Positions 1 through 29,350 of a DNA stretch of 64,000 nt are shown piece after piece. Numbering within the stretch: position 1 is the stretch's first letter; each line of letters begins with the position of its first letter. The notes under the pieces are model-generated. The model saw only the letters and a list, made by a program, of their open reading frames with translations, did no database searches and was not told the origin of the DNA. Source of the stretch: Zygnema cylindricum (Eukaryota > Streptophyta > Zygnematophyceae > Zygnematales > Zygnemataceae); NCBI GenBank assembly GCA_037447655.1, contig JBBHKE010001578.1, forward strand, positions 271,727-335,726, written 5' to 3'. The position numbers were made by a program, and so were the translations under genes.

Positions 1-46
1 AGGATTTTTTAGGAGATTTTAGGGTTTTTTAGGGTTTTTTAAAAGA
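1..46. repeat. Telomere-like AGGGTTTTTT degenerate tract
   Basis: Imperfect repeats of AGGGTTTTTT run off the left edge. They resemble expanded plant TTTAGGG repeats and match the style of tracts at 39927-39960 and 41544-41592. The tract is interstitial or a simple repeat; chromosome-end status cannot be judged from the window. Confidence 0.5.
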
Positions 47-2758: not shown

Positions 2759-3662
2759 CAGAGGTCGCAGAAGTCAAAAAAATTCATACCCGAAACCGAC
2801 CGTTTTTTTTTCAAAATCTGAGTAACCGACGCCCGACCGAGCTTAGTCACGCTCCAAAATTGTTAACCGTTAACCGACCGTCGTTTACGAAAAAAAAAAT
2901 CAACCGAATCTTGATTTTTCGCGACTAACCGTGCCCGCCCGTAACCGAAAAAGTACAAAATTAATCAATGTACGACGGAATAAGCCAATAATTACGATTT
3001 GTCGCGTTCATTAAGATTTGCGAAATGAATAGGGTACTACACCGCGCATCGTTATTAGTGTCAAATTTTAAATAGCGTAAAAAAAAAATTAGTGCTATTG
3101 ATTCTAATTTAGTGCCAGAAACGTGGCATAATATGGTCCACATCCTTAAATAGAGTTGCTAATTTAATTTTGAAAATCATGTATACTAATTGCAAAAAAA
3201 AAATCAAGATTTTAAAAACCCAAAATAGAGTTAATAACACTAATAACGATGCGCGGTGTACCGTGTCAGATTTGCGACGCTTTGTCGCGTTCCCTAAGAT
3301 TTGCGAAATGAATAGTGTACTACCGTGTCAGATTTGCGACGCATTGTCGCGTTCCCTTTGATTTGCGAAATAAATAGCTTACTACAGTACCGTGTCAGAT
3401 TTGCGACGCTAATCATAATGCCACGTACTTCCACGATACCAAAAGTACAAATAACAACAATGTTGAAAAAAAAAAGTACAAAATTTCATTTTTTTTTGTT
3501 TTTAGTTTGACCGACCGTAACTGACCGTTTTTTTTTTCCTCGTAAGTCAACCGACCGTAACCGCCCGACCCCCAAAATTTGGCAACCGAATCCGTTCCGG
3601 GTTCGGGGCGGGCGTTGGGTTAACGGGCGGTCACGGTTTCGGTTGACCGTTTGCGACCTCTG
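2759..3662. mobile_element. Non-autonomous hAT-like DNA transposon (MITE)
   Basis: The element starts with CAGAGGTCGCA and ends with its complement TGCGACCTCTG, giving short terminal inverted repeats. The flanks are ATGGAGGG (2751-2758) and GTGGAGGG (3663-3670), an 8-bp target duplication with one mismatch. The 8-bp TSD and CAGAGG terminus are hallmarks of the hAT superfamily. The ends are rich in ACCGACCG-type subterminal repeats in inverted orientation. No transposase reading frame is present, so it would depend on a transposase made elsewhere. The middle holds a tandem repeat. Confidence 0.75.
3256..3415. repeat. Tandem repeat of about 67 bp inside the hAT-like element
   Basis: Two full units and one partial unit share TTTGCGACGC, TTGTCGCGTTCCCT and GATTTGCGAAAT. 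A related unit lies at about 2993-3050, so the array has been split or diverged within the transposon. Confidence 0.65.
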
Positions 3663-3670
3663 GTGGAGGG

Positions 3671-4828
3671 ATGTCCTGATACGCTACGCCTCGATACAAA
3701 CTACGCTATATCGTACATAACTAGGAAAAGCACGCTACAATATCGTAAAATATCGTAAGGGACATACCGGGGTTCTAGATTACGATACGCAACACTACAC
3801 CACCCATAGATTACCATTACTGAATTGTTCTAGTTATCAAAGTTCTAGATTTAAAAACACTAATTTTTGTTTGGAATGGGTATTTTGGCGATGCAATAAT
3901 AATTGTTACAAATTTCATACTAATTTTTCTTTTCGATAGTCATACTTACACAAAAACAGTATAACATAATTTACGTGGTAGCGTTAAATTAAGACAGCGC
4001 GTACGAATTATGGTCCATCATACGTAAAATTATAGACAAATCAGCAAGAAAGAACTTACAAACGTTGATTTGCAACATAAAATTTTGTTTTGGCTTAAAT
4101 CAACCTCATTATGTGCTACTTGACACGACCAAAAGGTCAATTCCCTTTCCCTAATTTACTCTCTTTAAACAAAAATAAAATGCATAAAGACTGTTGTATA
4201 TATTTAGTTTAATCTTCAAATTCAAACTCAAGCTTGTAATCAAAAGTTTGCGTATAGTATTCAAATTATTGAGTTATCGGCTAAAATTTGTAAAAATTAG
4301 ACGTCCTAATGACATGTTAAAAATGTGAGTTTCAAATTAAAACCTTAAGTCAAACATCAAAATTTTAAGTTAGGAATTATGATTTCAATATTATATAATT
4401 TTGAAAATGTTTTTTCATTTATAATCATTTACACTCGCGAAAAGTGAAAACGTTCAAACGACATTTCAAGCAACATCTAAATGTTTATAGCCAAGTATAG
4501 TTGAATACGGTTGAATGTTGTACCATTTAGGACATTAAACAAAATTTCACCACTAATAATCCACACTCATCAATTGTAAATCCAAGAAGACCATCTTTGG
4601 TCATGTTTAGTATTCAAGTAACAAAACGATATTTTTTATATAACAAATCACATTCTACGTGCTAAGTTCGACACGATCACATAACCAACATAGATACAAC
4701 TAACAAGTACAACAAAAACATAACTAACACGAATGGTGCCGAAATAGGACTAGTATTACTAATGGCATAACTCCATGTGTTTAAGTAAGGGTATAATTAT
4801 GCAATTCCTACAAAAGTGGATGTTTTCG
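3671..4828. other. AT-rich non-coding stretch
   Basis: No coding potential, repeat ends or RNA gene is recognised. The last 100 bases weakly resemble the gypsy LTR body, so part of this may be an old, diverged LTR. Confidence 0.5.
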
Positions 4829-5052
4829 TGCATGAGAATACACCCGTGTGTAACATGCATCACCACCAGCTAGTGTTGAAAGTAAACATCAGAAATTGTA
4901 TGAATCTCACTCATATCCGGTGGTCAAGACCACGACCAGAGTACAAAGAATATATACCAACATAAATATCAATGAATCAGCCCAAAAAAACAATCAAACA
5001 AATAAAAGTACAAAGACAAGTCCAATAGGTAAAGATGAAAAAGGATGGAATT
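4829..5052 (-). repeat. Extra copy of the gypsy LTR start segment
   Basis: This stretch repeats 5993-6212 in the same orientation with clear similarity (for example ATGAATCTCACTCATATCC in both). It lies just outside the predicted outer end of the gypsy 3' LTR. The simplest reading is a remnant of a second LTR in tandem. Confidence 0.6.
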
Positions 5053-5059
5053 CCTATTT

Positions 5060-6218
5060 GCGTCAGTGGCCACTAGGCCCTGATGTCTTCATTATTTCCT
5101 ATAAGAGTCTAACTAGTAGACAACAGACTCTCCTCACCTGAATGAAGCCGCCGAGAAAATCGGCACTCCCGAAGTTAGAAGAAAAGAGGGCCAAACGACG
5201 AAAACCGCGCACAAGCAACAATAAAAAACAAGATTCACACGCCATAATTCATAGACCACGACAAGTGAGACACAGTCTGGAGGGAAATCTTGCGGGCTAG
5301 CTTGCGCAAGTGGATTACGTAACGACTTAGTACACAAAAGAGAGATAAGAAAGCTCAAAGACAACAGCTAGCAAGAAATTAAGGATCCAGAGAGAGAAAC
5401 CCTAACTCAACAACTAACTGATACTAAATATGTTGTCGAAATGCCAACTGAAACAAAAAGGTTCGACAAATCTCGAGAATTCAAATTTGCCAAAAAACGA
5501 CAACTCTCCAAATTTGGATTCCCGTGATGTAATTTGCAACTATTCCTACACCGCCACATGGCTTTTATCTTATGCTATTTCCTATCGTACAACTACACTA
5601 ATTCCTCTATGTCTCTAAACAAGCAGGTTCTTATGTGCAAACGCTGCCAGTTTTTAGAGACGGCCGCTGCTTGGCCGCTTGGGATGCCTTTCATCTACAC
5701 CTCGAGGATAAAAACCCTCCCTACGCTACAAAAAATAATGTATGAACCTCCGAGGGTTCACGACTTAGCCATCAGTCAAGTTCAAAGTCGTTTGAGTTCT
5801 TGACAACCGATGCCGAACCGCAATCCAGTTCCACGTCGGTTTCCTGTTGTATCGTACGTGCATGTAGTACGGCCCTTGTTTATGTTGTACCTTCAGCTGT
5901 ACGCAAAATTACAAACCTATCACGTCATATACACGCCAATTAGTATAAGATTCAACAATAATACCCGCCAACGCCTTCTGGCATGACAGTTGTCGTGCAT
6001 GAGCATACAACTGTGTGTAACATGCATCACCACTAGCTAACGTTGACAGTAAACATCAAAAATTGTATGAATCTCACTCATATCCGGTGGTCAAGTCCAC
6101 GACCAGAGTACAAAGAATATAGAGCAACAAAAATATCATTGAACCAACCCAAATAAACAAGCAAACAAATTAAAGTACAAAGAGAAGTCTAGTAGGTAAA
6201 GATGAAAAAGGATCGACA
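5060..6218 (-). repeat. Gypsy 3' LTR
   Basis: On the minus strand it starts TGTCGATCC directly after a G-rich polypurine tract and ends near ...GCA at about 5060. Its body (5060-5990) aligns with 23867-24808. The first 230 bases have no counterpart at the right-hand LTR, which is therefore truncated at its outer end. Confidence 0.75.
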
Positions 6219-6234
6219 TCCCCCCCCCCTCAAC
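6219..6234 (-). promoter_or_regulatory. Gypsy polypurine tract
   Basis: On the minus strand a run of ten Gs (TTGAGGGGGGGGGGA) immediately precedes the LTR start TGTCG. This is the expected position of the plus-strand primer for reverse transcription. Confidence 0.8.
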
Positions 6235-6237
6235 TCG

Positions 6238-6560
6238 TTAGCCTGCAGGGGAGCTGGTAAGGACAAGTGGTAGGTCGGGACATCCGTGGCAAAACCACTA
6301 TCCAGCCAAAATAGCTTGCAGAGGTGGAAACAAGCACTCCATATGAAATCCTAGATTGCAATAGTCGCAAAGAAGCATCGTCGTTTCTCCATTAGACCGT
6401 CGACACAACTAACACTCAGTGGCCTCGATAATCGGCATCCGCCACAGATCCATACCGTGGGAAAGATCAGGTAGGTAGCAGTGGGCAGACTATTTCGAAT
6501 GTTCTTGCAAAGTTCGCGTGTCGGCCCCTTATAGGCTTGATAATCCATTGGAGTCGATTT
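6238..6560 (-). pseudogene. PHD finger at the C-terminus of gypsy Pol
   Basis: The minus-strand frame through 6420-6238 reads a full C4HC3 PHD finger: C-x2-C, 11 residues, CDYC, x4-H-x2-C (NLGFHMEC), then L-x-PPL, and W-F-C-H-G-C. Zinc ligands fall between 6414 and 6280. The spacing, the PPL motif and the Trp two residues before the third-last ligand are classic PHD signs, and PHD fingers usually bind the histone H3 tail. Pol ends at a stop at about 6240, just before the polypurine tract, so the finger is the last Pol domain, where chromoviruses carry a chromodomain. Two in-frame TAG codons (6411-6409 and 6300-6298) and a frameshift relative to the integrase show decay. All eight zinc ligands survive. 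Confidence 0.85.
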
Positions 6561-7860: not shown

Positions 7861-8300
7861 CATTCAAACTGAGGAGCCCGGGTCGATGGATAATCTCCAT
7901 ATTGTATTCTTGCAAAATAGGAGCCCATCAAGCTAACTTGCCAGATGGTTTATCATTGGTCATGAGCGAATGCAATGGTTGATGGTCAGTAAGAAGTGTA
8001 AAGGGCTTGCCATAAAGGTAATGGCGGAAATGCACAATTCCCCAAACTGCGGCGAAGCATTCCCCCTCATAACTACTGTAGTCGACTCGGCTTGATTGTT
8101 AGTTCGACTCAGCTTGATTAATGCTTCGACTTGCATAAGCAACCACATATTCCTCACGTGTAAGCTCACGTTGAGTTAGGATGGCGGCGATACCGGACTT
8201 ACCAAACTCTGTTTGCAGGCAAAATGGCAACTTATGATTTGGTGGACGGAGAATGGGAGTAATGGACACTGTGTTTTTGAATCCCTAGTATGCCTCAATC
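7861..8300 (-). pseudogene. Gypsy RNase H (broken)
   Basis: A degraded minus-strand frame shows VWGIVHFRHYLYGKPF, TDHQPLHSLM and a following HRPG...NADGLSQ stretch, typical of the gypsy RNase H and its C-terminal connection to integrase. Several frame changes and at least one stop are present. This domain removes the RNA strand during reverse transcription. Confidence 0.7.
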
Positions 8301-9480
8301 TGCGGGGATCCCAAAGTAAATGACACTGATTTTTTCAAGAGTTTATTTAGTGGAGATGCGAGCGTGCTAAACCTAAGAATAAACCTCCGATAATAATTAG
8401 CCAAACCTAGGGATGCACGCAAGCTCGTTAAATCTGTGGGGGCCGGTAGTTTACTGATCGCTTCTACTTTGGCTTCTAGCGGTTTGATTCCCTTGGAGGA
8501 GATAAAATGCCCTAGATATGGTACCCCTTCAGCCCCGAAGATGCATTTGGCTGGATGGCATTTGAGACCCACCTTTTTCAACTCCTTTAATACCCACTCT
8601 ATAGGGGCTGCGTGTTCCTCCATAATGGTTGAAGCAATAATAAATTTGTCAATGTAGCACTGGGTGAACTTTCATCCCCCTAAGAGTGAGTCCATAACCT
8701 TTTGAAATACGGCCGGTGCAATTTTCAAGCCAAAGGGCATAACTGACCATTCCCAACGCCCATCACTTCCCCAAAATGCGGTCTTATGTCGGTCTTTTTC
8801 CTCTATTTCAATTTGGTTAAACCCTTGTCGTAGATCCAGAATGCTGAAATATTTAGCCCCTCCGAAGTGATCAAAAACGTCCTTCGCCAAAGGCATTGGA
8901 TGTCGGTCCTGGATTGTACACGAATTTAGTTCTCGATAGTCCCCGCACATGCGACGTTCTGTGAAATTCCCCTCTGCGTCTTTTTTACGAGGCATGACGA
9001 TAGGAGTCGCAAAGGTGGAGTCGGACCTATAAATCAGTCTTGCCTCTTCTATGTCGCGCATCGTTTGTCCATTGCTTCCCATTCAATTTCTGATAGACGA
9101 TGCTTGGGTTTGAATATGGGTCTGTCATCTTCTAGGTCAATGGAAATTTTGTAGGTGGTGTGTCGACTTAGATCATTCATGGAGTAAGCGAACGCGTCTT
9201 TGTGTTGGTTTATGACTGCGTCTAACAGTTCGTGTTCCGGTTTTGTTAGTCACGTCCCAAATTTCCACATTGGTTTTTCAAGTGCGTTGATAATAATGGC
9301 TTCCATTGCCTGTGCAAATGCTAGCTGCTCATCCGTGACTAAAGACGGTCCCAACTCATACTCAACAGGGAGCTCATGCAAACAATTGATTGCATGATGC
9401 CAACTTCTAGATGGAAATGCAGCTATCCACTATGGGACCGCGCGTACTGGTATCAAAGATTTATCTGCTGTGTATGCTGG
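8285..9480 (-). pseudogene. Gypsy reverse transcriptase (broken)
   Basis: Minus strand. An upstream linker (PEHELLDAVINQHKDAFAYS, about 9240-9180) leads into palm and fingers motifs: PIVMPRKKD, MCGDYRELN, then FSILDLRQGFNQIEI and SVMPFGLKIAPAVFQ. A stop follows (about 8675). The catalytic box then reads CYIDKFIIAS, so YIDD has become YIDK and the second metal-binding Asp is lost. The connection continues as VPYLGHFISSKGI and LANYYRRFI to 8285. The order PR-DNMT-RT-RH-IN places it in the gypsy polyprotein. The lost Asp makes this copy's enzyme inactive regardless of the stops. Confidence 0.85.
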
Positions 9481-9689
9481 GATAGACCAACTCATGTGAC
9501 TAGGTTCCAAGAAATTGTAAATGGTGTGATTTGTGTGAGACTTGGCGGAAGGAGGAAAAAGAGAGAGCTGAAATGTTGTACCCCGGAGAGAAGGTGGGTA
9601 TTTAGAAGCAGTGTGTTTGAATGGTGTATCCCCCCCCGAGCAGATTTTGACGGATGATTCTGTGCGTATTGACCGGCTGCAAACCTTAT

Positions 9690-10665
9690 GCCCAAGACGA
9701 ATGAGAGGGATTAAGGATCCATAACACGGCCAAGTAAGGTGTAGCGTTGCCGCTCAGTGAGTCCTGGGGCAGCGGTAGTGCCTGGAATGATATGGAGGAG
9801 GAGTTCTCTTTGCGCAACAGTAGGTTCATCTAGACTGCCTGTATGAGTGTTTTGAAGCATACCAGGTCCGTTATGTGAATATGCATGGGAGTGTGGATAT
9901 GGGACAAGTGTAGGAAGTGCACGTAACGGATGGTTAGGGACGTTAAGACAAAATGTAGGAGGATAGTCTGTCTGGACACATGTCTGAACCTTATGAAATT
10001 GAAAAAGTAATTCTTTAATGGAAAATTTAGGTGGTCGAACACCGAGGTTAGCTTCTCAGAGCCGGCCTATGTCCACCAAATTAGTCCACTTGGAACGAAC
10101 GCGGTGGGCCAGCGACCCATGGCGTGCTGCATTGATTATTAGTGGCGGTCCAATTAATGATTCGATACGTTTGTAGTCTGCGAGAACTGTGGGTCACGGG
10201 TCATTATGAGCTGCGACGTTTTCTAAGACGCATCGAAAGGGACGGTTCAGTGACTGAAAGAAATGGATAAGACGTACTACCTCAAAAAATAGTGAAGTGC
10301 GCGGATGCGCTAGACCTAAACCCTTCCCAGCTCTAGACATACCTTAACATTCACAACTTTTAAAATGGAGGTCGATTGGTTCTAACTCGCCGAATGATGA
10401 TTACATATCAGACGGATATCTTGTGGTAAAGCCAAATGCATGCTGTGAAAAGCGGACTGCGGGAAGAGGTGAGGGTATTGTTCATGTAAGATTTGACAGT
10501 GATGCAACTGAGCGTGTCTAGCCAAAGGGTCAATATCTACATAATAATATTGCTTCATTAGAATACCGTTCCTAAGGCAAGAGAGTAGTGTGGTACCTAT
10601 TCCTGCAAAAAGGTCTAAGATAACGAGACAGTTCGGGTTAGGTTGTAAGATGACTATTTTCCATT
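9690..10665 (-). pseudogene. Dnmt3/DRM-like cytosine-5 DNA methyltransferase domain within gypsy Pol
   Basis: Minus strand, in order: motif I LDLFAGIGTTLL (10615-10595; SAM binding), YYYVDIDPLAR (about 10550-10520), motif IV C-x-G-M-S-R-A-G-K-G (catalytic Cys codon 10349-10347, followed by a TAA where Gln or similar is expected), LFFEVVRLIHFF, motif VI CVLENVA (10232-10212), LIINAARHGSLAHRVRSKW with the motif VIII R-x-R (about 10150-10080), and motif X LTERQRYTLLGR (about 9760-9720). Similarity to Dnmt3 is clearest in LFFE..RLIH, RPF...ENV and RQR.LLGR. Order is conventional, unlike the circularly permuted plant DRM enzymes. One frameshift (about 10380) and stops at 10346, 10196, about 10056 and about 9710 inactivate it. 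Motif I shares a reading frame with the end of the protease, so it was part of the polyprotein. Expected role: methylating cytosine in DNA. Confidence 0.85.
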
Positions 10666-11405
10666 GAATGGGGGAAAACCTAGAAGAATCCATTGCAATA
10701 GCGGGTGGATCTGGAATATTGGATAAAAAAATCGGTACAGTGAACTTATACAATCTGTCAAAATCAGCAGAGTCAATAATAAAACCTAGGGTGCCAAATA
10801 ATTCCAGCATTCCGAGGGGGTCTGGTAAGATTACTTCCGCTGTTGAAGATTCAAGAATATCGGCACCAATGCGAACTACAACATAGGCTGGCAAGACAAC
10901 TGCCGAATGAGCCGTAGTAGGCATGGGTTGTCGGGCCGAGATAAGGGGTAAGCACACTTTGCGGTTTGGAAAAAAGTTTGGTCTGTACGAAAATGTTTGA
11001 TCATGCATATCGACCCCCCCCCCTACTCGGAAAATGACGTCTTGGCCGACCAAGCACTCATAATCATTACAGTTGGTGACGAAGGCGTGAGCGTATATTT
11101 CCGCGAAATCGGAATATGATTGACACTGAAACTGAAAACATAGAGGTTCTTTTGTCATACCTAAGACTGGTTCTGTGGTTCCTGCGGAAGTCAACTAACG
11201 AGTGGTAGTGGGTTGTAGTGTATCTGCTGTAAGACCTATTTTCTTGGCAAAATCAGATCCAAGAATAATGGGTTTCGCCCCTGTGTCCATGAGAGGTAAA
11301 GTTGGGGCTACTCCATTAACTGTGAACACACCTAACTTGTTATCTAGAAAACTGATGTGTGGAGTAAGACTTGAACGCTCTTCGAGAGTAATTGCTTGAA
11401 GAGAA
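10665..11405 (-). pseudogene. Gypsy aspartic protease and linker
   Basis: The minus-strand frame reads NGVAPTLPLMDTGAKPIILG with the catalytic DTG triad at 11287-11279, followed by FAKKIGL and, after a TAG stop near 11197, ECLVGQDVIFRVGG. That is the usual D/E-x-L-x-G-x-D-x-(I/L) tail of retropepsins. The frame 11194-10382 (270 codons) runs without interruption from the protease tail through a linker of about 120 residues into methyltransferase motif I. This continuity ties the methyltransferase to the element. Confidence 0.75.
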
Positions 11406-12317
11406 AGGGCACTACGGATTTGAAGCGCTTATAACGCATGTGCAGATTGAGTTAGATCTGAGGATGTAGCCTCGCTATTTGATTCGGGAAGCATGGTAGA
11501 CACTATTGCTAACCGTTTTTTGACCTTATAGGCATCTTGTATACTTCCCTCTAGAATGGTTAAGGCCTCCGCGGTGATGTTAGAGGCTGTTTCCGGGATA
11601 AGGGTTTTAGGTTCTTTAGCAAAAGATAATGGTAGGCGGGTGTTAATGTATTTAGACTCATGATTATGATCCGGAGTCCCTTTGAAAAAAGCTGCCTGTT
11701 GTTGGACGGTTGACTCTCGAAGAGATCGCCCAGTGAAAGAGGGCATATGGATTACGGTTTGGGCCATTCCAGTTAATTGCAGTTTGACCTGCGCCATTAG
11801 CGGGGCAAACTGCTCCCTCATCATGGCTGCCATGGTTGCCTGCATATCTGCTCTATCTTGGTCCCTCTTGCTGATATTGGGGGACGTGTCCTTCTCTTCC
11901 CCTTTCGCTGAACTGACCAATTTAGCCGAGCGAGCAGGTATACCGCCGTTTTTAATTTGATTTTGATAAACGAAATCTGGATTTTTAATATGACATCCCT
12001 GTACGTAATGACCTGTTTGATGGCACTGAGTACACGTGGCTGCCTTGTCTGGACATCTGCGTGCGTCATAACCACTGTGACGGCATCGGAAACATATGCG
12101 CACACTAGGGGTAGTCGGTAACGTTCACATGGCAGGGCCCTTGGAGGTTTAGGGTTGGGCCATGGATTGCGCGGGTTAGGATTATGGTTACGATTTAGAT
12201 TAAGGTAATCTTTAGGTGAAGGTTTTCGCCGCTTGTGAGCGTCCCACCAGCTGGTCTGCATTTCGTACTTTATAGCATACTCTGCAACCTGCTTGAAAGT
12301 GAATTTAAGGCCATGTG
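11406..12317 (-). pseudogene. Gypsy Gag C-terminal part with two zinc knuckles
   Basis: Minus strand. GLKFTFKQVAEYAIKYEMQ continues the capsid region interrupted by the copia insertion. A Lys/Pro-rich stretch follows, then two CCHC knuckles in a row: CFRCRHSGYDARRC (His replaced by Tyr or shifted) and CTQCHQTGHYVQGC (intact). The remaining 180 residues are a linker toward the protease. A frame change lies near 12100. The knuckles bind the element's RNA during packaging. Confidence 0.75.
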
Positions 12318-13340
12318 TGAAACTCTGAGACCTCCATAAGTCCTCAGAGTAGACAGCTTCGAAGAAGCCTCTAGGATAACCCTGACCCCTTTGTGTTTCA
12401 GCAAAAATAACTGCCACCCTGGCAGACAAAAACTTTGACTTACTTCACCCCTGTGAAGATAAGACTCCCCTGAGTCGATAGCAAAAAGAATCTCTGAATT
12501 TGCTCCCCTGAGCAGTAAGTTATAGAGGGTCAATGTTGACCTTTTGTACAGAAACTCTCTGGGAGAGAGGGTCCTATCTTCTAATTTTTCTAAGTCCTAT
12601 CTCTCTCACAGACTCTATCTATTGATATACGGAGCCAATCAGATTTCAGTTTCGTACACAAAAGTACAGCTGCCGGTGTACTTTATGTACGGCCATTGTA
12701 CGACATGGTCTAAATGTTAACACGTGGTATGTCCGAATTCGCTCCCTTAATCCTCGGAGATGCCGCGATCCAATGTCATTCCGCCACGTGTCATATGATG
12801 TGGCGATGACCACAAACCGCCGAAATCCTTTTCCGCGATCTTGGCGTTTATTCCGGCTGTCCGATTAAATTAACATTTAATTGTAGCCGTAATAAATACA
12901 TGGGCGGTATTCGTTTCACTAAAGAAATAAATGCGCGGTATTGGTTTCTTATCCCTACCGGAATCCGTACTTTTACATTTACTAGATATATGTTTCTGTA
13001 ATCAGTTATAGTTGAATGAACTTTTCTACATATAAATGTTTAAATAATTATCAAACCTTATATTACGTAACACTACTTCTAGACTTAACGGCTAAAGCTA
13101 CCGGCTACCGGTTGTGTGCCGGTCGGTAGGTACCAGGATCAAATCCTGTGGCCGGCACATATTTTTTAGTAAATTAAACCCCTAACTAAAATTTATTTTC
13201 CTGTAAACCTTTGGATAGCCTAGGTAGCGAAGGCTCTAGCTCCCTCTCCAATTTCTCAGTGACTGCGAGAAGTTTGAGAGTTGGAGAGAGAAGTTAGAGG
13301 TAGACTGCCTCGGCTTTATTCTTATTGCTATTCAGACCTA
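12318..13340 (-). repeat. Copia A 3' LTR
   Basis: Aligns along its length with 20760-21789 at roughly 95% by eye. At about 13320-13345 its end meets the start of D's LTR in inverted orientation (AGACCTAGAAAATACTAGGTCT). Confidence 0.8.
13086..13160 (+). other. tRNA-like block in copia A LTR
   Basis: The plus strand, antisense to the element, has TAACGGCTAAAGCTACCGG followed about 32 bases later by GGATCAAATCC (13136-13146), resembling a Pol III A box and B box at tRNA-like spacing. It is bounded by GCCGG/CCGGC arms. A second copy is at 21535-21605. It is not a functional tRNA by eye. Confidence 0.45.
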
Positions 13341-14676
13341 GAAAATACTAGGTCTTTATTAGATAGAAAAGAGTAGAGGCAGTCTGCCTCTGACTCCCAT
13401 CTCCAAGCCCCCACACTTTTCGTAGTCACTGAAGGTTGGAGAGGGAGCTAGAGCCATGGCTGCCTAAGCTTTCCAGAAGAACAAGAATAGATAATAGGTA
13501 TGTTTACCAAAAAGGTATTTGACGGACCCAGGAATTGATCGTGGTACCTACCACCCGTCAAGTTTCCAGCAGCCGTTAGCTTTGTCCATTTAGTCTAGGA
13601 CTAGTGCTAGTACGTGTAAGGTTTGATAAATATTTAAATAGTTATAAGTAGGATTTTCCATTTAACTAGGTTACGATATTTAGTACATAGAGACAGTTTA
13701 ATTTAGTACGGAGTACGGTACGGGGATGGAACGGATACCGCGCATTTGTTTCGCTATCGAAACAAATACCGCGCACCAATTTTCGCCTGCTAAAATTGAA
13801 TGCCGGTTATATCGAACGGCCGCGATAAATGTCGAGATCGCGGAACAGGTTTTTTTTGGCGTTTGCGGACGTCACCACTCTGAATGACACGTGGTGACAT
13901 TTTACAGGTTGCGGAATCTCCGGAAAGGAACATAACAAATCTAGATGTGACAAATGTCACATTATGACATCATCTTACAATGTCCATACGGAAAGTACTC
14001 CGGCGCCTGTACTTTCTGTACGGTACCGTTTTTTCTGACGTGGCATGACCCGTCGCCACGTGGAGGGATAAGATTTGGAAGCAGGAATTTTGGGGATTAT
14101 AAGAGCGAATCCGGATAGGACACGTGTTAAGTTTTTAGCCATGTCGTACTATGGTCGTACAAAAGGAACACCGGCACCTATACCTTTATGTACTATACAG
14201 TAATTTGATTGGTCCGTACCTCAGAAATAGAGGGTTTAGAGAGGGGTTAAGGACTTAGAATATTTCAAGTAGGTAGCTGCCTCTCCCAGGGAGCACCTTG
14301 TATAAATGGCAAACTTTGGCCAGCCATAACTATCAACTCAGTTGACCAAATTAAGTGAAATTTTTTGCTGCGGACTCAAAGGAGTCCAGGCTACACAGGG
14401 GTGTAGTCGGTCAGATTCTTTGCCTGCCTTAGTGACTGAATTTCTTAGGGAAAGTCAAAGTGGGTGAATGTGTCTAAATCTAATATTCTAACTTTACATT
14501 TTGTGGTGGACCTGAGCACAGAGAAAGTGTTATTTCACAGGGGTGAAGCTATATTGGGATTTTGATTGTCAAGGGGTTAGTCATTTGGGTTTATATCAAG
14601 TTGGAGTCAGCACTATCTAGATTAGCTTCCTTTGGACCTGCAAATTTTGTGTGGCAATGGAGCCCATAGAATTTCA
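13340..14676 (+). repeat. Element D 5' LTR
   Basis: Related but diverged from the LTRs of A and B, and also found inverted at 34999-35898. It contains an antisense tRNA-like block at about 13525-13600 (GACGGACCCAGGAATTGATC). It ends ...AATTTCA directly before the PBS. Confidence 0.75.
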
Positions 14677-16250
14677 GGTGATGGGCCCACCATCTAGGGT
14701 GCTTATGTTCGATGGAATACACTTCACTTATTGGGAGTTCACGATGGAGGGATTGCTTTTCGAGAAGCACTTGTGGGGAATTGTTTCGGGACAAGTGAGG
14801 TGTCCGCCACCCGGCTTTGGTGGAGCTCACTATGGAGAATCATCTGGGGCTGCCCAGAAAACCAACCGGGGTTCAAATGCAACGGAAGGTGAAGGGAAAA
14901 TCATTATCGTGGAAAGGGAAATAGGGGAGAAGGATAAAGGGACACCTATGGTGAGGGGAGCTAGGCTCTCGGCTACGGTTCCACTTGTGGGAGCTATAAC
15001 TGAACCAAAAACTGAAGAAAATGATAGAAAAATTTGGGAATATAAAAACACTATAGCAAAACATCTCATACTTAGATATGTGTCTAAGTCTATAGCTATC
15101 ACTCTTTTAAATCTAACCAAGTCTTCAGAAATTTGGGACACACTAATTCAGATTTATAAGAGTGAGACTATACAGAGGCAGCAGTTAGTAACACAAGAGA
15201 TAGAGGCCTATGTTTATAAAGGCGGTAGCATGACAGAGTTTTGCAATGATATTGCTGTGTTATATATTGAGCTTGCTAGTGCGAGATACGTCGAATCTGA
15301 GGAGAGAAAGATTAATACACTAATCATGAAACTCCCAGATGAGTACGAATACATCATTTACTGTATGCAGGGAATGGATGGCTCCTCGTGGACTTCGAGC
15401 ATCACCATGGGGATAATACTTGTGAGGGAAAGCACCTTGGAGCTTTGTAGGGGAAGTGACAGGGTGAATGCATTTACAGCTGGTGGTGACTGGCGAAAGC
15501 GTGATGTGAGGAATGGCGTTGACGAGCGGAAGCGTGATGAGAGGAAGAAAGACAAAGGTAAACCTTATCGGAACTTTGGTGGAAAGAGAGGGAGAGGAAA
15601 AGAGAGGGGAGCTTTGAAACAAAGGGTTTGCTTCGCTTGTAGGAAACGGTCACTATATGGAGGAGTGTCCTCGTTTGGAAGAAATTAGAAGTTGGAGTGT
15701 GAATGAGGAGGAAGAAGGGGAAGAGGAGAAAGAGGATGAAAAAATATTGGAGCTTCTTCACATGGGTAGAATGGAGAAGAGAGAAAAGTACACAGAAATT
15801 CCACGAAGGCAACAGTGTGCTTTTGGAGGTATAAGGGAAGTAAAGAGAGAGGAGGTACTTGAGGATGTCGAGGAGTGTAAAGTGTATGACTTAGAAATGA
15901 GAAAGTCAGAACTAGGATCCATAAGTGAAAACGGGAAAAATAAAATTAATGAGGATAATTTTATAGGTATTTTGGAATTATAAAACTGGTCGGAAAGGGA
16001 GACTTCAACGGATTCCGAGGAAAGGGGAGAAGTGAAACTAGAAGGGGTTTTAAAATATAGGGGAGAAGAGGAATATTTAATGAAAGGTTTAGGGGAGGAG
16101 AAATATTTATAAGGAATAAATTTAGAAAGTGAGAGTGGAAAGATCTCCATGGGAGAGAGTGAGGAAAGTTCATGTTTTTGGGGTGATGGGTTTGACATCA
16201 CTAAAGGGAGTAATGACATTTATGAAGGTGTGCCTGTAAAAGGGTTAGCC
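14657..16250 (+). pseudogene. Element D Gag with acidic C-terminal extension
   Basis: The start ATG at 14657 lies in the LTR, 20 bases before its end, and translation runs through the PBS as EFQVMGPPSRV. The copia Gag core follows (YWEFTMEGLLF, LILRYVSKSI, TQEIEAYVYKGGSMTEFCND, LIMKLPDEYEYI). The zinc knuckle starts at CFACRK, but a one-base deletion near 15650 shifts the frame. In the restored phase the knuckle would continue GHYMEEC. After it comes a strongly acidic Glu-rich tail (15700-16250) with stops at 15981, about 16110 and about 16255. EIPRRQQCAFGG matches the pre-protease segment of A and B, but the protease DSG motif is absent. Relatives continue into Pol here; D does not. Confidence 0.75.
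14677..14689 (+). promoter_or_regulatory. Primer-binding site, element D
   Basis: GGTGATGGGCCCA abuts the LTR end. It matches the complement of the initiator tRNA-Met anticodon arm with one mismatch and is read in frame as V-M-G-P. Confidence 0.75.
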
Positions 16251-16752
16251 TCATAAAGGTGTGTGTTGCTGATTGGAGATGGGGCTGGTTGTTTGAATTG
16301 CAAGAGGGAAAGTGGATTTAGTGTGGATGGAAAAGAGATGAGGTGGATAAAATCTTTGCTCGGATTTATGATAAGTGGGATGCTAAATGAATTGTGTGAT
16401 GCAATTATTATTTCATTTCATCTAATGCAGTGTTTTAAATACGAGAGCATATTTCTTAAGTTATATAAAAGGAAAAAGAATAGAAAAAAGAAAAAGGGGA
16501 GAGAGTGTTTTTGTTATTTTGTTTGTAAGAGTTGAAAGGAAGTACACTAGAAAATAAGGGGAGTGTTGATATTTGGGTATTTTCTAGGTCTTTATTAGAT
16601 AGAAAAGAGTAGAGGCAGTAGAGGCTATATTGGGGTTTTGATTGTCAAGGGGTCAGTCATTTGGGTTTATATCAAGTTCGAGTCGGCACTATCTAGATAA
16701 GCTTCCTTTGGACCTGTGAATTCTGTGTGGCAATGGAGCCCATAGAATTTCA

Positions 16753-19700
16753 CAGCCTCTATGGTGGACTGAGCAATAACTTTTTGCTGTTTGCTACTCC
16801 AACAGCAAGCCCCATCACCCACATATAATACATATCCAGAAGTGTATCTCCTCATCGGAGCTTCACCATAACTGGCATCACTCCAAGTAGTGATGTCAGT
16901 ATTCTCCCCACCCAAATGCAACCATCGATCCCTAGTTCCTATCAAATATCTAAGAACTCTCTTAGCTGCCTCCCAATCCCTCTTAGTGGGAGCATTTAGA
17001 CTTCTACTCATGACTCCTACAGCTGCAGCTAAATCCGGCCGGGTACAATTCATAAAATAGATTAAACTTCCCACTACTTGCCTGTAAGGAATAGTCTGCA
17101 TGAACTTCTGTTTTTCAGGAGATAATTCCTCGTCTAAGACTATGACTCCTTCTTCCTCACTCCCCTCACTTCCCTTGTTCAACTCCATTGGAGTTGTACA
17201 ACTATAAGCTTTATCCATTTGAAATTTTTCAAGCATGTTCCCTATTGCTTCCTTTTGAGTCAATCTTATTATTTTTTTTTTCGGTCTCTCTCTACTTGAA
17301 TTCCCAAAATATATTTTGCTTCCCCCATATCCTTCATTTCAAATCTCCCTTTAAGATCGGTTTTCAGTTTATTAATTTTTTCCATTGATTTACTTAAAAC
17401 AAGCAAATCATCAACATAAATTGCAATAAATATAAAACCTTCCTCATCTTCGAAAACATAGATTGAGTGATCTGAGCTGATCCGGATATATCCCAGACCG
17501 GTAAGAAACTCATCAAGCTTCTTATTCCACTGTCGAGGCGCCTGTTTCAAACCATAAAGAGATTTAATCAGCCGGCATACCTTACTCTCCTCTCCTTCCT
17601 CCACAAACCCTTCGGGTTGTCCATGAAGATCTCCTCTTCCAATTCTCCATGCAAAAATTCTGTCTTGATGTCCATTTGGTGCACTTCCATGTCTTCCGCT
17701 GCTGCCAGGCTGAGAAATATGCCGATGGAGGGAAATCTGACCACCGGGGCAAAGGTTTCCTCGTAGTCAATTCCCTCTTTTTGTGTAAATCCCTTTGCCA
17801 CTAATCGGGCCTTGTAGCGCATGATTGTGTTATCTGGGTTCAGTTTTAATTTGAAAACCCACTTACAACCGATTGGTTTTCAGTTAGGTGGACAATCCAC
17901 CAGCTCCCAAGTATCGGCTGCCATAATTGAGGCCATCTCCTCATTGATGGCTGTCTTCCACCGGTTTCTTTATGGACAAGTAATCGCCTCTCCATAAGGT
18001 TGAGGTTCATCTTGATGAGATAGTTTAGTTACCGTGTTATTAACCTGTTTTTCTTGTAGTCTTTTGCTAATTCTCCTTCCCCCCCTCAAAATCTGAGGCC
18101 GGAATAGATGGTTCTCGTGGATTCTTTCGAACAAACTCGGCTTCTCCCCTATCCCTTGATTCCGAATCAATTTCCACCACGTCTTCCGCTTCGGGTAGAG
18201 TTGTCACTAGAGTTTCCACAGCCGAGTCCTTTTCCGTCTTATTTGTATCTGCAAGAATGTCATCTTTTATAAAACCTGGATAGTTAGGGAGCTCAAAGTC
18301 ATCGGAATTTTCTGACTCAAATCTAACTTTTATTGACTTTGTATATTTGAAGGGATCCACAGACTTTCCTTCATCCATAACTACTAGATGCTTTACTAAG
18401 ATTATATCTTCTCTTTTTAGATCATAAAGTGTATATCCTTTAACATCCTCATCATATCCTAAGAAGTATCCAAGTTTTCCTTTAGGATCTAGCTTCCAAT
18501 TAGACCGATCTGTATCTAGACTGAAAACTTGACTGCCGAAAACCTTTAAGTGAGATAAGTCTGGTTTGCGGCCTGTCCATCTCTCATAAGGTGTTTGATA
18601 TTTTATAGCTAAAGTAAAAACTCTATTTTTGAGGTAATTAGCACAATTCATTGCTTTTGCCCAAAACCTTTTTCCTATCTTCTTATCTGACAACATACTT
18701 CTAGCACTATCACTTAGTTTTCTATTTAACCTTTCAACTACCCCATTCTGTTCCGGGTTTTCTAGAACTTTCTTTTGGTGTTGGACCCCATCTTCCCTCA
18801 GAAAATCCTCAAACTAGTTAGAAGTATACTCTCCACCATTGTCACTCTTTATTCTCTTGATTGAGTTTCATGAAGTTTTTCGCTCCATGCTTTATATTGT
18901 CTGAAACAATCCTGAGCTTCGGACTTGTTTTTCAAAAAATACACTCGGGAATACCGAGACCAATCATCATTGATAGTCATCATAAATCTCTTCCCCCCCG
19001 GCGAGGGCACTTTAGCTGGTCCCTAAATATCTGTGTGTACTAGATCGATAATTTTTTCCCCGTTATAGGTGGCTGTTTTAGGAAAGGGTAATCTGTGTGT
19101 TTTACCTTGAGCACATCCACTACAATCACTTATATTATCATTCTCACTAAACTTAACCCCTTCCACCACTCCCATCTTTTTCATCTCTCTTAACTTGTCT
19201 AGATTCACATGCCCAAGCCTCTTATGCCACATCATAATATCATGAACACCAGCATAATAAAGTTTCTTCTTTTCATTACTTAAAACCAACCTAAACATCA
19301 CATGGCTACCTTTCTCATCAATAAAATAGACATCCTCCTCAAAACTAGCAGTAAAGACTCCTTCCCTAGTGCTAGTAAAAAAACCCTTATCATCTAATAC
19401 GGATGTAGAGATGAGGTTTTTGTTCAGCTCCGGAATAAACAATACATCGGAGAATGTTACTATGGATGTCTTTCCTTCTACTAACACTTTCAAATCTACC
19501 AATCCTACAAGAGTAGTGCTGACTATCCTCCCATCCCCATACTCTATCTCTACGGTGGGAATATTTCTTATCTTAGTGAACCAATGCCTATCCTTACACA
19601 TGTGCATGGAGGCACCTGAATCTACAATCCAGCCTGCTTCACCTTTTAATCCACCGTAAGCACATTTCCGCCTTCGTGGTATTTCGACCTCATTTTTCGC

Positions 19701-20779
19701 CTCCAACTCCTCATCTAAAAGGAGCTCATCGTCCTCATCCTCGGATTCCGCCTCATGTACCTGTGTCACAAGGGCCTTTTTCTTTCCTCTCGGGGTACCA
19801 CCGGTCTGCCCCTCCTTTAATGGAAGCTCGGTTAGCTTATTGCACTTTGCCATATAGTGCCCAGGTTTCTTACAAAAATGACATAAACCTTTGGGAGCCC
19901 TTGGTTCGAACTCGTCGGTCTAATTTTTTTGCTCCCTCCTCCCATAGTTTTTGACCGGTTTCCGGGAATCCTTGTTCCTCCAATCGGTCGCAGTTGCCAA
20001 GGCTTGGCCACTCTTTCTTCCCCTTCGGATCTTAGTCGTATTCTCCCGAACAAGAATCATCCCTACCACTGAGTTCCATATCCACCTTGAGTCCAGCAAG
20101 TCCTGCACACGGTTGACTATGTTCTTCAACTCATCGGGTAACTTCATCAGTAAACAGTTAACCTTTTCTTTGTCAACAAAATCTTTTCCCGCACTCTCTA
20201 GCTCCATGAAGAGTGTAGCAAGCTCATTGCAAAAATCCAACATCTTCCCCCCTTTCTATACATACTCCTTAACTTTCTGATCAGCCAACTGTTGTTGCTA
20301 AATCGTACCACTTCGGTACATCTCTATGAGAGCCATCCAAAGATCGGATGCCTTTTATACATGCAAATGAGGACATGCAAATCCTTATTGAGATGGCGTA
20401 GGATTAAGTGCTTTGCCGCCATATTGTTGAAGTCCCAGGTTTCAGTATCATTCTCCTCGTTCCTCGGAATAGGTGACATGAATGCCGAACTAGTTGTTAT
20501 TGGTGTGGTCGCCTTCTTCTCCTTTCCTTTGTCCACCATCTCTCCTTCTTTTGTTTCCTCCGTTGAAGGTGGATCCTCTTTTCTAGTGAATCTGCTTCCT
20601 CCAAACCCTGGAGGAATTCCAAGACTTGATGGACGCCCCAACCGTCCACTCACTATCCCCCAAAACCTTATTTCGTATAGAGCTCCTATCATCATACTTT
20701 CCCAGTAGATGAAGCCAGTTCCATTAAAGATTAGTACCCTAGAGAGTGGGCCTATAACCTGAAACTCTGAGACCTCCAT
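16753..20779 (-). pseudogene. Copia A gag-pol (broken)
   Basis: Minus strand. Gag starts at 20779 inside the LTR, reading EFQVIGPLSRV across the PBS. Gag core is at 20240-19920; a CCHC-like segment is near 19870; the protease reads GWIVDSGASMHMC at about 19636-19598. Integrase has HKRLGHV and CSGCAQGKTHRLPF, its core is damaged between 19022 and 18700, and RPDLAAAV-type RT/RNase H follows (YVDDLLVL at about 17420-17400). Stops and frame changes lie near 20330, 19850, 18700, 18060, 17900, 17600 and 17265. RNase H is cut at QSTIEA (about 16753), where D's LTR begins. The remaining C-terminus, 3' UTR and polypurine tract are missing, so this copy is incapable of self-propagation. Confidence 0.85.
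20747..20759 (-). promoter_or_regulatory. Primer-binding site, element A
   Basis: On the minus strand GGTTATAGGCCCA follows the 5' LTR end directly, one mismatch from the consensus GGTTATGGGCCCA found in B. Confidence 0.8.
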
Positions 20780-21789
20780 AAGTCCTCAAAGTGGACAGCT
20801 TCCAATAAGCCTCTAGGATAACCCTGACCCCTTTGTGTTTCACCAAAAATAACTGCCACCCTGGCAGACAAAAACTCTCACTAACTTCACCTCTGTGAAG
20901 ATAAGACTCCCTTGAGTCGATAGCAAAAAGAATCTCTGAATTTGCTCCCCTGAGCAGTAAGTTATGGAGGGTCAAAGTTGACCTTTTGTACAGAAGCTTT
21001 CTGGAGAGAGGGTCCTATCTTCTAGTTTTTCTAAGTCCTATCTCTCTCACAGACTTTATCTACTGATGTATGGAGCCAATCAGATTTCAGTTCCGTTCAC
21101 AAAAGTACAGCTGCCGGTGTACTTTTTGTATGGACACTGTACGACATGGCCTAAATGTCGACACGTGGTATGTCCGCATTCGCTCCCTTAATCCTCAGAG
21201 ATGCCGCGATCCAATGTCATTCCGCCATGTGTCATCCGATGTGGCGATGACCACAAACCTCCAAAATCCACTTCCGCGATCTCGGCGTTAATTCCGGCCG
21301 TGTGATTAAATTCACTTTTAATCGTAGCCGTAATAAATACATGCACGGTATTCGTTTCACTAAAGAAATAAATGCGCGGTATTGGTTTCTTATCTGTACC
21401 GAAATCCGTACTTTTACATTTACTGGATATATGTCTCTCGTAATCAGTTATTGTTAAATGAACTTTTTTACGTATAAATGTTTAAATAATTATCAAACCC
21501 TATATTACGTAACACTGTTTCTTGACTTAACGGCTAAGGCTACCGGCTACCGGCTGTCTGCCGGCCGGCAAATACCTGGATCAAATCCTGTGGCCGGCAC
21601 ATAACTTTTAGTAAATTAAACCCCTAACTAAAATATATTTTCCCGTAAACCTCTGGATAGCCTAGGTAGCCATGGCTCTAGCTCCCTCTCCAATTTATCA
21701 GTGACTGCGACAAGTTTGAGAGTTGGAGAGAGAAGTTAGAGGTACACTGCCTTTGCGTCATTCTTATTTCTATTCAGACCTAGAAAACA
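20760..21789 (-). repeat. Copia A 5' LTR
   Basis: Pairs with 12318-13340. Its outer end reads CCTAGAAAACA, then gypsy Gag sequence resumes. A tRNA-like block is at 21535-21605. Confidence 0.8.
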
Positions 21790-21802
21790 CTTTAAAAGAC
21801 CA

Positions 21803-22875
21803 TTAATTTCCACAATATGCATTGGTCAAACGGTTCTGAATAAACTGTCCAGATTGTGTGGGAAATTGACCCACGAATTTTTGTACCGCCTTGGCCTCTG
21901 ACATGAGATCCTGTAGGGCCTCACACAAAGTTTTCATACGTGACCGCAATGCCGGGGCTGTTTTGCCCGGTCTGCGTTTGAAATTCATTAATTCTTTGAC
22001 TTGGTGAGGATTCTGCATCCGATACTCGTCCTGTAATAAATCAAAAATTAACGAGACTGGATCTCTTGGAGGGACTAGCATTTTGAGGTCTAGCCAGAAT
22101 TGCAACCCTAGCTGCCACTGCAAATTGATGAGGAACCTTAGGTATTTCGAGGAAACTTTGTTGCCCGCGGAGTCAGAAACTGTCGGGACAACGGGTTGGA
22201 AAGGAATTTCGGGGCTGCCAATTATGGCCAAAGCTCCGGAATAGGCGGTTGCAATTTCAGTCATAACACAAATTTCCTCATATTTCAGTGTATAGGGCAG
22301 ATCCCCTGAGGTATCTCCCTAGTAAAGAAAAAGCGATCCGCAGGTCATAGCGGTCTTGGTACCGAAACGCAAGGTCACGCATTTCGGTATTGAAAAGCAT
22401 GCGAAAGTGGGACAAGGACATGGTGTCCTTGAGACCAGAAAAACATAAATGATGTTTACCACCTCCGGTGTCCATGGACGAGGCCATGTCCACGCTGAAA
22501 GGAGTGAGTAGTGTGTGTGGTACTGCCCATTGAGAAAATTGACGGGGGTAAACCTAGACCTTGTATGTCCAGGGAGTCGGTGTCCGAATCTTCCCCCGAA
22601 CTGTGGGTGAAAGATGAAGAAACAGACGATGTAGACCTATGGAGAGAAGAGAGACCTGATCTTGACTAACTAGGTGATCCTACAAATGGAGACTGAACTG
22701 CTGAGTTTAGAAAAGATATCAGAGGGGAGTTGGCCGTGTTCAATTCTTTGGGCGGCCCTTGGTAAGCTCTTGTGCTTCTGGTGGTACCAGCCGGGAACTC
22801 TAAATTATTCCAGTCCATTAGCATGTAACCAGAAGATTGTCCTATCCGAATGTAGTTAAATGCGAACACACACAA
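21803..22875 (-). pseudogene. Gypsy Gag N-terminal part
   Basis: Three minus-strand frames in series: 22875-22666 (possible start MLMDWNNLEFPAG), 22493-22278 (GLKDTMSLSHFRMLFNTEMR) and 22264-21803. The last contains FLINLQWQLGLQFWLDLKML, NPHQVKELMNFKRRPG and MSEAKAVQKFVGQFP, a capsid-like retrotransposon Gag layout. Reading is broken by frameshifts near 22660 and 22270. The remainder of Gag resumes at 12317 on the other side of copia A. Confidence 0.65.
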
Positions 22876-23866: not shown

Positions 23867-24810
23867 ATATTTGCGACAGTAACAACTAGGCCTTTAAGTC
23901 TTCAATATTCCCTACAAGAGTCCAACTAGCATGCAGTAGCCTCACCTCAACCAGATGAAGACACCGAGAAAAACGACACTTCCCAAGTTAGGGGAAGAGA
24001 GAGGCAGCAGGCGGAAACCGCGCACAAACAACAATAAAAAACAAGGTTCACACGCCATAATTCATAAACCACGGCAAGGGAGAGACAGTATGTAGGGAAA
24101 CCTTGCAGGCTGGCTTGCGCAGGTAGATTAGGTAAGGGCTTTAGTATCGAAAAAAGAGATCGGAAAAACTCAAAGACAATAGCTAGCAAGAGACTAAGGA
24201 TTCAGAGTCAGAAACCCTAACTCAACCACTAACACATACTAATTATCCGCCGAAAATTCCAACTGCAACAAAAAGGTTTGACAAATCCCGAGAATGCAGA
24301 TTGCCAGAAAGCGATAACTCTCCAATGTTGGATTCACGTGCTGTAATTTGCAACTAATCTAATGCGGCCACATGGCCTTTATCCTATGCTGTTGCCTATC
24401 GTACAGCTACACTAATCCCTGTATGTCTTTGAGCAAGCAACTTTCTATGTACAAACGTTGCCAGTTTCTAGAAGTGGCCGCTACGTGGCTGCCTTGGGAA
24501 GCCTTACATCTACACCTCGAGGATGAAAACCCTCGCTATGCTACAAAAATAATGCATGAACCTCCAAGGGATCACGACTTGAACATGTGTCAGGTATGTA
24601 ACTGTTTGAGTCCATAATATGTTAGGGTTTGAGCCGTTCCAATTCACGAAATCCGATGCTGTACCGCAATCTGATTTCATGCCGGTGACATGGTATGACC
24701 TCAATTCCGTTCGTACCTTCAATTGAACACTCCGCCACCAACTTGTATTATTCCCTTATACCCTTATTAGCATAAGAATCAGCAATAATACCCACCGACA
24801 TCTTGCGGCA
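23867..24810 (-). repeat. Gypsy 5' LTR (truncated)
   Basis: Aligns with 5060-5990 throughout (for example ACCGCGCACAA, ACACGCCATAATTCATA, ATCTACACCTCGAGGAT). The outer 230 bases present in the left LTR are missing after GGCATGACA at about 24808, so no TSD can be read. Confidence 0.75.
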
Positions 24811-25210
24811 TGACAAGAGAAACGTTATTGGACTAATGAAGCACAAACCCTACATTGTTGACGCACTAAAAGGGAGTCTCCATGTGAGGGAATTTACACG
24901 AAACGTACTGGCTTACAAGTACAGTACGCTAGAGTACACCGTATATCGCTACTGGAGTATTCTCAATGTTTATTTTGCCGTTTAAAACATATGTTCTTGA
25001 TAGATACTTGTTGGATTAAGGATCCGATGGTGGCAATTTAAAGGTAAGATTCCCAAATTTTTATTGAAGGTCTTAAACAAAAAATCGGAAACATATGTAT
25101 GAAAAACAAATGTTTAAGTGGCTAAAAAATTACCAACACTCATATCGATAAAAAATATACTCTAATGATGAAACGTTTGTACATATTTTTCAAAAATGTC
25201 TCCTAAGATT
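24811..25210. other. Non-coding spacer
   Basis: Nothing recognisable between the truncated gypsy LTR and the start of copia C's LTR. Confidence 0.5.
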
Positions 25211-26730: not shown

Positions 26731-26746
26731 CTCCCCTTATTTTCTA
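26731..26746 (-). promoter_or_regulatory. Copia B polypurine tract
   Basis: On the minus strand AAAATAAGGGGAG directly precedes the 3' LTR start TGTTG. The same motif precedes LTR starts at 16564, 56421 and 57537. Confidence 0.85.
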
Positions 26747-29311: not shown

Positions 29312-29350
29312 AAACCTCTTTCCTCCAACCGAAGGTACTTTTGCAGGTCC

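Follow-up and report, generated by a model that had tools for sequence, protein, structure and literature searches.

We confirmed that a 64,000-nucleotide stretch of Zygnema cylindricum DNA (the window) encodes a non-permuted Dnmt3-type methyltransferase (DNMT) between the protease and the reverse transcriptase (RT) of a retrotransposon, and further copies in the genome showed that the methyltransferase is an established part of the element family. The window element is very probably an old, inactivated retrotransposon with the Ty3/gypsy-type coding order gag-PR-DNMT-RT-RNaseH-INT-PHD, enclosed by repeats in the arrangement A1-[coding]-B1-A2-B2, in which the non-permuted domain is a regular family component. 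Its parts, from the 5' to the 3' end of the element, are given below; P0003 and L015 are outside relatives, a protein and a circular contig.

23868..24815, minus strand: terminal repeat A1, the 5' end of the element, starting TGTCATGCC; 77.7% (709/912) identical to A2 with a sharp border, the internal border being common to other genomic copies
21815..22318, minus strand: 5' part of gag; residues 26-125 of L015 ORF1 match 22072-21773 by tblastn (E=8e-5), and the part is collinear with four other copies
12318..21814, minus strand: nested Ty1/copia element in gag, foreign to the gypsy-type element; alignment places its LTRs (91.9%) at 12318-13349 and 20760-21791
11429..12317, minus strand: 3' part of gag with two CCHC zinc knuckles, read by eye; open frame 12124-11432, collinear with other copies
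10673..11320, minus strand: aspartic protease and protease-RT linker, in a frame shared with DNMT motif I; PF13650, E=5.1e-5
9660..10630, minus strand: Dnmt3-type cytosine-5 DNA methyltransferase domain; motif reading, Pfam, PDB and tblastn with relatives
8285..9082, minus strand: RT with one in-frame stop; PF00078, E=2.1e-15 and 8.4e-7 in two pieces; 66% identical to P0003
6755..8284, minus strand: RNase H and DDE integrase, with an H2C2 zinc finger in 7750-7241; PF17921, E=1.9e-10; P0003 aligns at 9055-6758
6280..6414, minus strand: PHD finger at the Pol C-terminus, with two internal stops; PF00628, E=1.8e-10 with X at the stops; relatives have a PHD finger at the same position
6222..6229, minus strand: G run immediately before B1, read as the polypurine tract; a G run stands at the same spot in other B1 copies
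5989..6221, minus strand: repeat B1, 89.3% (208/233) identical to B2
5055..5988, minus strand: repeat A2, by alignment to A1
4822..5054, minus strand: repeat B2, the 3' end of the element, by alignment to B1 and from other copies

The order protease-RT-RNase H-integrase, with a DDE integrase and a zinc finger, is that of Ty3/gypsy Pols and was found in both the window and L015. The second RT piece scored slightly below the curated cut-off, and the window integrase reached only E=0.19 against rve_3. No tyrosine recombinase (PF00589) was present among the Pfam matches of L015, which has an rve integrase instead, or in the scanned pieces of the window, and a DIRS element was rejected on these grounds. 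The repeat borders are sharp, with 23-26 of 30 bases matching inside four borders versus 5-12 of 30 outside.

By eye, the nested copia element is bordered by a 5-bp duplication that is imperfect (ATGTG/ATATG), and the gag halves on its two sides rejoin with a 5-bp overlap on contigs C1006, C783 and C17 and with a longer one on C2254. Further repeat-like sequence lies within the copia element near 13.4-16 kb, as does an open frame on the opposite strand that resembles a copia gag. Elsewhere in the window, a second copia element at 25778-32024 (LTRs 97.6-97.9% identical, open frames of 868 and 504 aa) is much younger than the gypsy-type element, and positions 1-4000 have a CpG observed/expected ratio of 1.47; this ratio is 0.47-1.15 in the remaining 4-kb blocks. 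Neither Rfam nor tRNA searches found a match in the 64-kb window.

The methyltransferase was read on the minus strand from motifs I (DLFAGIG), IV (catalytic Cys codon 10349-10347), VI (ENV), VIII (AHRVR) and X (RQRYTLLGR), in the motif numbering of C5 methyltransferases, whose customary motif IV is P-C-Q. These motifs follow one another in the conventional order, with the catalytic Cys, in the window and in its relatives; motif I precedes the others, so the circular permutation of DRM enzymes (VI-X before I-IV) is not seen, and DRM identity was rejected. Motif I lies in an open frame (11194-10385) that continues without a break from the protease tail, and the remainder is in a second frame from 10400, with a frameshift near 10401. 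Four in-frame stops interrupt the domain (10346-10344, 10196-10194, 10058-10056 and 9713-9711), the first of them within motif IV, as the 'x' of C-x-G-x-S. With this frameshift and these stops in the methyltransferase, and with gag split by the nested copia, the window copy is inactivated. An earlier note on this DNA had placed all five motifs and the Cys codon, had pointed out the frame shared with the protease tail and had set the domain apart from the permuted DRM enzymes, and each of these readings was upheld. It had put the domain at 10665-9690; a domain is indeed there, and its limits needed correction to about 10630-9660, as the C-terminal helix is located past the stop at 9713-9711.

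The profile check that the note had proposed for the minus-strand translation gave a significant match. A single unbroken 49-aa piece scored above the family cut-off of PF00145 (E=4.7e-5), and a read-through of the domain with X placed at the stops and at one frameshift gave E=7.8e-8. All 29 PDB sequences found with the window domain at E<=1 were DNMT3A, 3B or 3C, and relatives matched the window DNA by tblastn (cut-off 1e-2) at up to 3e-48, at a single locus only. A chance resemblance of motifs is ruled out by these three kinds of match. The window domain also retains 25 of the 29 columns that are invariant in 12 compared relatives. Neither the protease-motif I frame nor the read-through domain had a protein match at E<=1e-3, and two tblastn scans using the domain found no relative. 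A profile of 10 relatives matched DNMT3A in PDB at 3.3e-25, DRM at 1.4e-13, HhaI at 1.2e-10, DNMT2 at 2.1e-7 and DNMT1/CMT at about 0.03, and the predicted model of the uninterrupted L015 domain (pLDDT 88.6, pTM 0.89) found DNMT3A as its best PDB match in a fold search (E 2.0e-16). In both searches, which compared the domain with enzymes other than plant host DNMT3, DNMT3 came out as the nearest type, ahead of DRM, DNMT1/CMT, DNMT2 and bacterial enzymes.

We searched the genome assembly (352,776,454 bases in 2689 contigs) for further copies. Three that were selected by their repeats alone, on C1006, C2254 and C17, all have the order PR-DNMT-RT, as does a fourth on C783 that was picked with its methyltransferase known; copies with the same order exclude an insertion of the methyltransferase into the window copy alone. 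PF00145 gave 123 scored matches out of 782 candidates, a lower bound, and an RT search listed 150 matches with 2547 first-look candidates. When the first 100 of the 150 listed RT matches were compared with the 123 PF00145 places, 27 had a PF00145 match upstream on the same strand and none had one downstream; the DNMT-RT distance was 1143-1204 bp in 26 of the 27 pairs and 2501 in one. Since the window RT itself does not belong to these 27, the lack of a Pfam match is no proof that the domain is absent.

For 12 of the 73 RT rows that had no PF00145 match, we examined the 1.9 kb lying upstream. By tblastn the domain or part of it was seen in 10 of these 12, over only 56-88 aa in L111 and L116 and as one piece of 182 aa in L118, and it was not seen in L112 and L119. 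Upstream similarity to the element breaks off in L116 (C2304), L112 (C1601) and L119 (C122). L111, on C2216, is missing 1.05 kb relative to three other copies and keeps the end of the domain; it has lost most of the methyltransferase yet retains an RT frame of 827 aa, which suggests that loss may be tolerated. A clean empty site, which the earlier note had named as evidence against its reading, was found at none of these 12 RT copies. That the methyltransferase is a component of the element and not an adjoining host gene, as the note had argued, is borne out by the same order in other copies, the near-constant DNMT-RT spacing and the existence of fused DNMT-RT proteins.

Forty of the 123 PF00145 matches were read; rank decided the choice, and in the second batch long open frames were a partial criterion as well. 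All 40 hold an element-type domain, and 16 are uninterrupted over the model, a share that is biased upwards by the partial choice for long frames; at least one PF00145 match (L037) resembles, by eye, a host MET/CMT-type exon. The best piece has motif IV as E-C-Q-G, the type of the window, in 15 of the 40 and as P-C-Q-G in 19, with 5 unassigned, and L068 is a 20th P-C-Q-G copy by its protein. Among outside relatives covering motif IV, taken together with the window, E-C and P-C each account for 6 of 12. The nearest of the 40 to the window domain is L052, at 86.4% over 1023 bases.

Nei-Gojobori comparisons gave a pooled pN/pS of 0.161 for six uninterrupted copies of the E subfamily (15 pairs), with dS usable (above 0.05) in only 3 of the 15 and a median of 0.16. 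For ten uninterrupted copies of the P subfamily, pooled pN/pS was 0.331 and median dN/dS was 0.24 over 21 usable pairs of 45; dS was saturated in most of the remaining pairs, and the copies had been chosen as uninterrupted. The near-identical pair L065/L074 had a ratio of 1.25, and the identical pairs L055/L056 and L066/L067 may be assembly duplicates. These ratios support the view that the domain is probably under selection in uninterrupted copies, and the altered E-C-Q catalytic motif looks to be selected in one subfamily. The earlier note's suggestion to examine further genomic copies for intact frames and purifying selection was thus answered by uninterrupted copies with low pN/pS.

As for what the enzyme does, the methyltransferase would travel in the particle with RT and integrase and would mark new cDNA, or chromatin that the PHD finger selects, during integration or shortly afterwards. 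The new copy would thereby enter a marked state that the host tolerates. We consider methylation of this kind the most likely function, with a confidence that stops a little short of even. A silencing enzyme of host type carried by a parasite would reverse the usual arms-race picture.

It is unlikely, if deserving of serious attention, that the methyltransferase instead acts as a regulator that keeps the element in check, for instance through self-methylated insertions that are silenced and tolerated by the host. The idea is raised in the discussion of PMC5890265, and both the large number of family members in the genome and the copy with most of the domain deleted agree with it; such a domain, however, should be lost easily from selfish copies, and yet dN/dS is low and 0 of the 12 checked copies is cleanly without it. 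An action on RNA in the manner of Dnmt2, for instance on the element's genomic RNA or primer, is improbable: C5 enzymes can switch substrate, and one subfamily has an unusual Glu before the motif IV Cys, but profile and fold are nearest to DNMT3 and far from DNMT2.

To study the repeats and integration, we used B1-A2-B2 as a genome query and read 15 stretches. On C1006, C2254 and C17, as in the window, A lies upstream and B-A-B downstream on the same strand. A without an adjoining B match occurs at four more places, on C783, C910, C1158 and C865; on C783, A1 is present and the stretch read at the other end has no B-A-B match. A1 starts with TGTC in 7 of 8 copies (TATC on C865) after dissimilar flanks, and it ends with CGCAAAT(A/G), followed by internal sequence that is similar across copies. 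The B1|A2 junction is GACA-nn-TGTC in the window and mostly within one or two letters of this in the others, while B2 ends with GACA in three copies and with a one-letter difference in others, including the window. We placed the 3' end of the element after the GACA-type tetranucleotide, having weighed two positions. Exact 4-bp target duplications then flank 2 of 4 copies (TCTT/TCTT on C1006 and ATGT/ATGT on C2254); the C17 flanks, CCAA/CCGA, match in 3 of 4 letters, and the window flanks, CTCT/ACAT, show no target duplication.

Two features are customary for Ty3/gypsy LTRs. The TG...CA ends with a short target duplication were found on C1006 and C2254, and two same-order LTRs flanking the coding part were not found; because the repeats are A-coding-B-A-B rather than same-order LTRs, the name gypsy applies to the Pol only. 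Judging by the TGTC...GACA ends and the 4-bp duplications, insertion of a molecule with DIRS-like repeats is most likely the work of an ordinary DDE integrase, and most likely of the element's own. A G run precedes B1 in 4 of 5 other copies with the start printed (L090, L092, L101 and L103, not L094), and standard reverse transcription with a G run at this place would predict BA-coding-BA, unlike the A-B-A-B order seen. B1|A2, a joined copy of both element ends, could rebuild the ends during reverse transcription.

Divergences of A1/A2 and B1/B2 are in agreement on C1006 (0.084/0.112) and C2254 (0.071/0.090). In the window they are K 0.27 versus 0.116, a mismatch that is not predicted by one retrotransposition event, and C17 leans likewise (0.115 versus 0.046). 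This disagreement would suit an accident of LTR recombination or nested insertion that produced A-B-A-B in the window without its being a family trait; we judge that very improbable, given the identical order and borders of C1006, C2254 and C17, the four places where A stands without B beside it, and the same order reported for a Klebsormidium element in the main text of PMC5890265.

Outside this genome, the RT region matched 1040 proteins, of which the best 120 were examined. Among these 120, a domain profile detected the methyltransferase or a piece of it in 12, Pfam annotation includes a PHD finger in many of the nearest, and P0003 is the closest by identity. Named relatives among them are Klebsormidium nitens P0042, Calypogeia fissa P0015 and P0034, and Marchantia polymorpha P0049. 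Only P0049 of these rows shows the domain, without motif I and with EKV for ENV; it is a damaged liverwort case with no bearing on tracheophytes. Related Pols are present in liverwort and metagenome records. The RT of P0042 is 44% identical to that of the window and falls in the same large clade, a kinship through RT alone; base composition is about 52% G+C in K. nitens and about 41% in the window.

L015 holds gag-PR-DNMT in one frame and, after a stop, RT-RH-INT-PHD in the same frame; its gag was read by eye, and its protease match is below the cut-off. The stop at 3489-3491 is the lone in-frame stop dividing the two parts and may serve to set how much Gag-DNMT is made relative to Pol. The record of L015 belongs to a cyanobacterial MAG, and we took the contig for eukaryotic contamination; cyanobacterial MAGs may contain algal contamination. 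Since L015 has DNMT in its first frame and RT in its second, and protein rows often start just before RT, a row without the domain does not equal an element without it.

We built an RT tree of 64 rows, comprising most of P0002-P0060, three insect rows, L015 and the window. The window groups with P0003, P0004, P0005 and P0022 (support 100/97), and a branch supported at 100/99 sets all 14 DNMT-bearing rows, along with those from Klebsormidium and liverworts, apart from the rest. Presence of DNMT requires 10 changes on this tree, a number equalled by 10 of 500 shuffles, with many rows starting downstream of the DNMT position; the 10 changes speak against one simple history of the domain. A DNMT tree of 14 rows with DNMT3A as outgroup has only two starred branches, and joins the window with P0003 (92/88). 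In P0047, P0053, P0054 and P0060 the domain stands after RNase H and not before RT, which means that it either changed its place within Pol or was gained repeatedly. When viral contigs were scanned with the profile, 14 distant loci at 22-47% identity turned up, mostly pieces, which we took for phage enzymes from their source, and an RT scan of the viral contigs found none.

That a host Dnmt3 gene or pseudogene came by accident to be within or next to a gypsy element, for which the sole point is the breaking-up of the window copy by frameshifts, has next to no probability, because motif I shares one frame with the protease, DNMT and RT are joined in single proteins (P0006, P0023, P0031 and P0044), P0003 is the end of a DNMT running into RT in one protein, and repeat-defined copies carry the domain at a fixed DNMT-RT spacing; a host gene beside the element is refuted by the other copies.

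The genome contains 88 light-harvesting matches (PF00504), so the host is photosynthetic. Dense clusters of light-harvesting-type genes were observed on C519, C2590 and C1116; on C519 a span of 35 kb contains many PF00504 matches. A search for rbcL gave no match. For one light-harvesting gene an LHCI chain ranks first in PDB, and chains that we take to be pea and Arabidopsis Lhcb3 (about 1e-125) rank above what is presumably Chlamydomonas LHCII (about 1e-110). C-to-T differences, summed by hand over six repeat pairs, amount to 64/647 in CHG, 44/648 in CG and 125/2333 in CHH, a pattern that fits plant-type CHG methylation. For Zygnema cf. cylindricum, the accessible text of PMC9915684 gives a genome of 359.8 Mb with 29.8% copia.

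A broader picture, which we offer tentatively and find somewhat doubtful as a whole, is that of an ancient, streptophyte-wide clade of gypsy Pols with a complete chromatin kit: a Dnmt3-type writer in Pol and, past the integrase, a PHD reader. A selected Glu-Cys catalytic motif would mark a separate enzyme lineage. Such elements might integrate DIRS-like A-B-A-B cDNA by a DDE integrase with their own DNA pre-marked, and in this genome their methyltransferases might outnumber those of the host many times over and help to shape its methylome. With a large clade that offers uninterrupted copies, a PHD finger, a changed motif and an integration signature, self-marking of cDNA becomes testable, as does the way in which DIRS-like repeats can go together with an ordinary integrase.

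Among known systems, plant DRM is Dnmt3-related and circularly permuted, unlike the window domain with motif I before IV, VI, VIII and X. Host DNMT3 occurs in mosses and other non-flowering plants, according to the accessible text of PMC6453930; these enzymes are likewise of Dnmt3 type and not DRM, but they are host genes outside transposons. Elements of the present kind are already known from one charophyte and from dinoflagellates in the main text of PMC5890265, and the earlier note had pointed to these acquisitions correctly. In Klebsormidium nitens, KnitGypsy-Dnmt3 combines a Gypsy Pol with a non-permuted, intronless Dnmt3 and repeats in DIRS order (de Mendoza et al. 2018, PMC5890265, main text), the domain being under purifying selection with Ka/Ks below 0.2. 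The likeness lies in a Dnmt3 within a Gypsy Pol and in A-coding-B-A-B repeats, matched here to the base; the PHD finger, the motif IV Glu and target duplications are unmentioned in that main text, and K. nitens copies may share them. SymbioDIRS-Dnmt3 of Symbiodinium, described in the same text, also has a Dnmt3 in a retrotransposon Pol and A-coding-B-A-B repeats; it has a tyrosine recombinase, whereas a DDE integrase and target duplications were found here. In the yeast assay of that study, SymbioDIRS domains produced CG methylation and none was seen for the Klebsormidium and SymbioLINE domains, a result that its authors call inconclusive. Titles and abstract openings, the scope of our search (subscription papers, figures and supplements lay outside it), held no report of PHD and Dnmt3 joined in a gypsy element. 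To these known systems the present analysis adds a C-terminal PHD finger, an E-C-Q subfamily, TGTC...GACA ends with 4-bp duplications, numerous element-type domains and a wider set of relatives.
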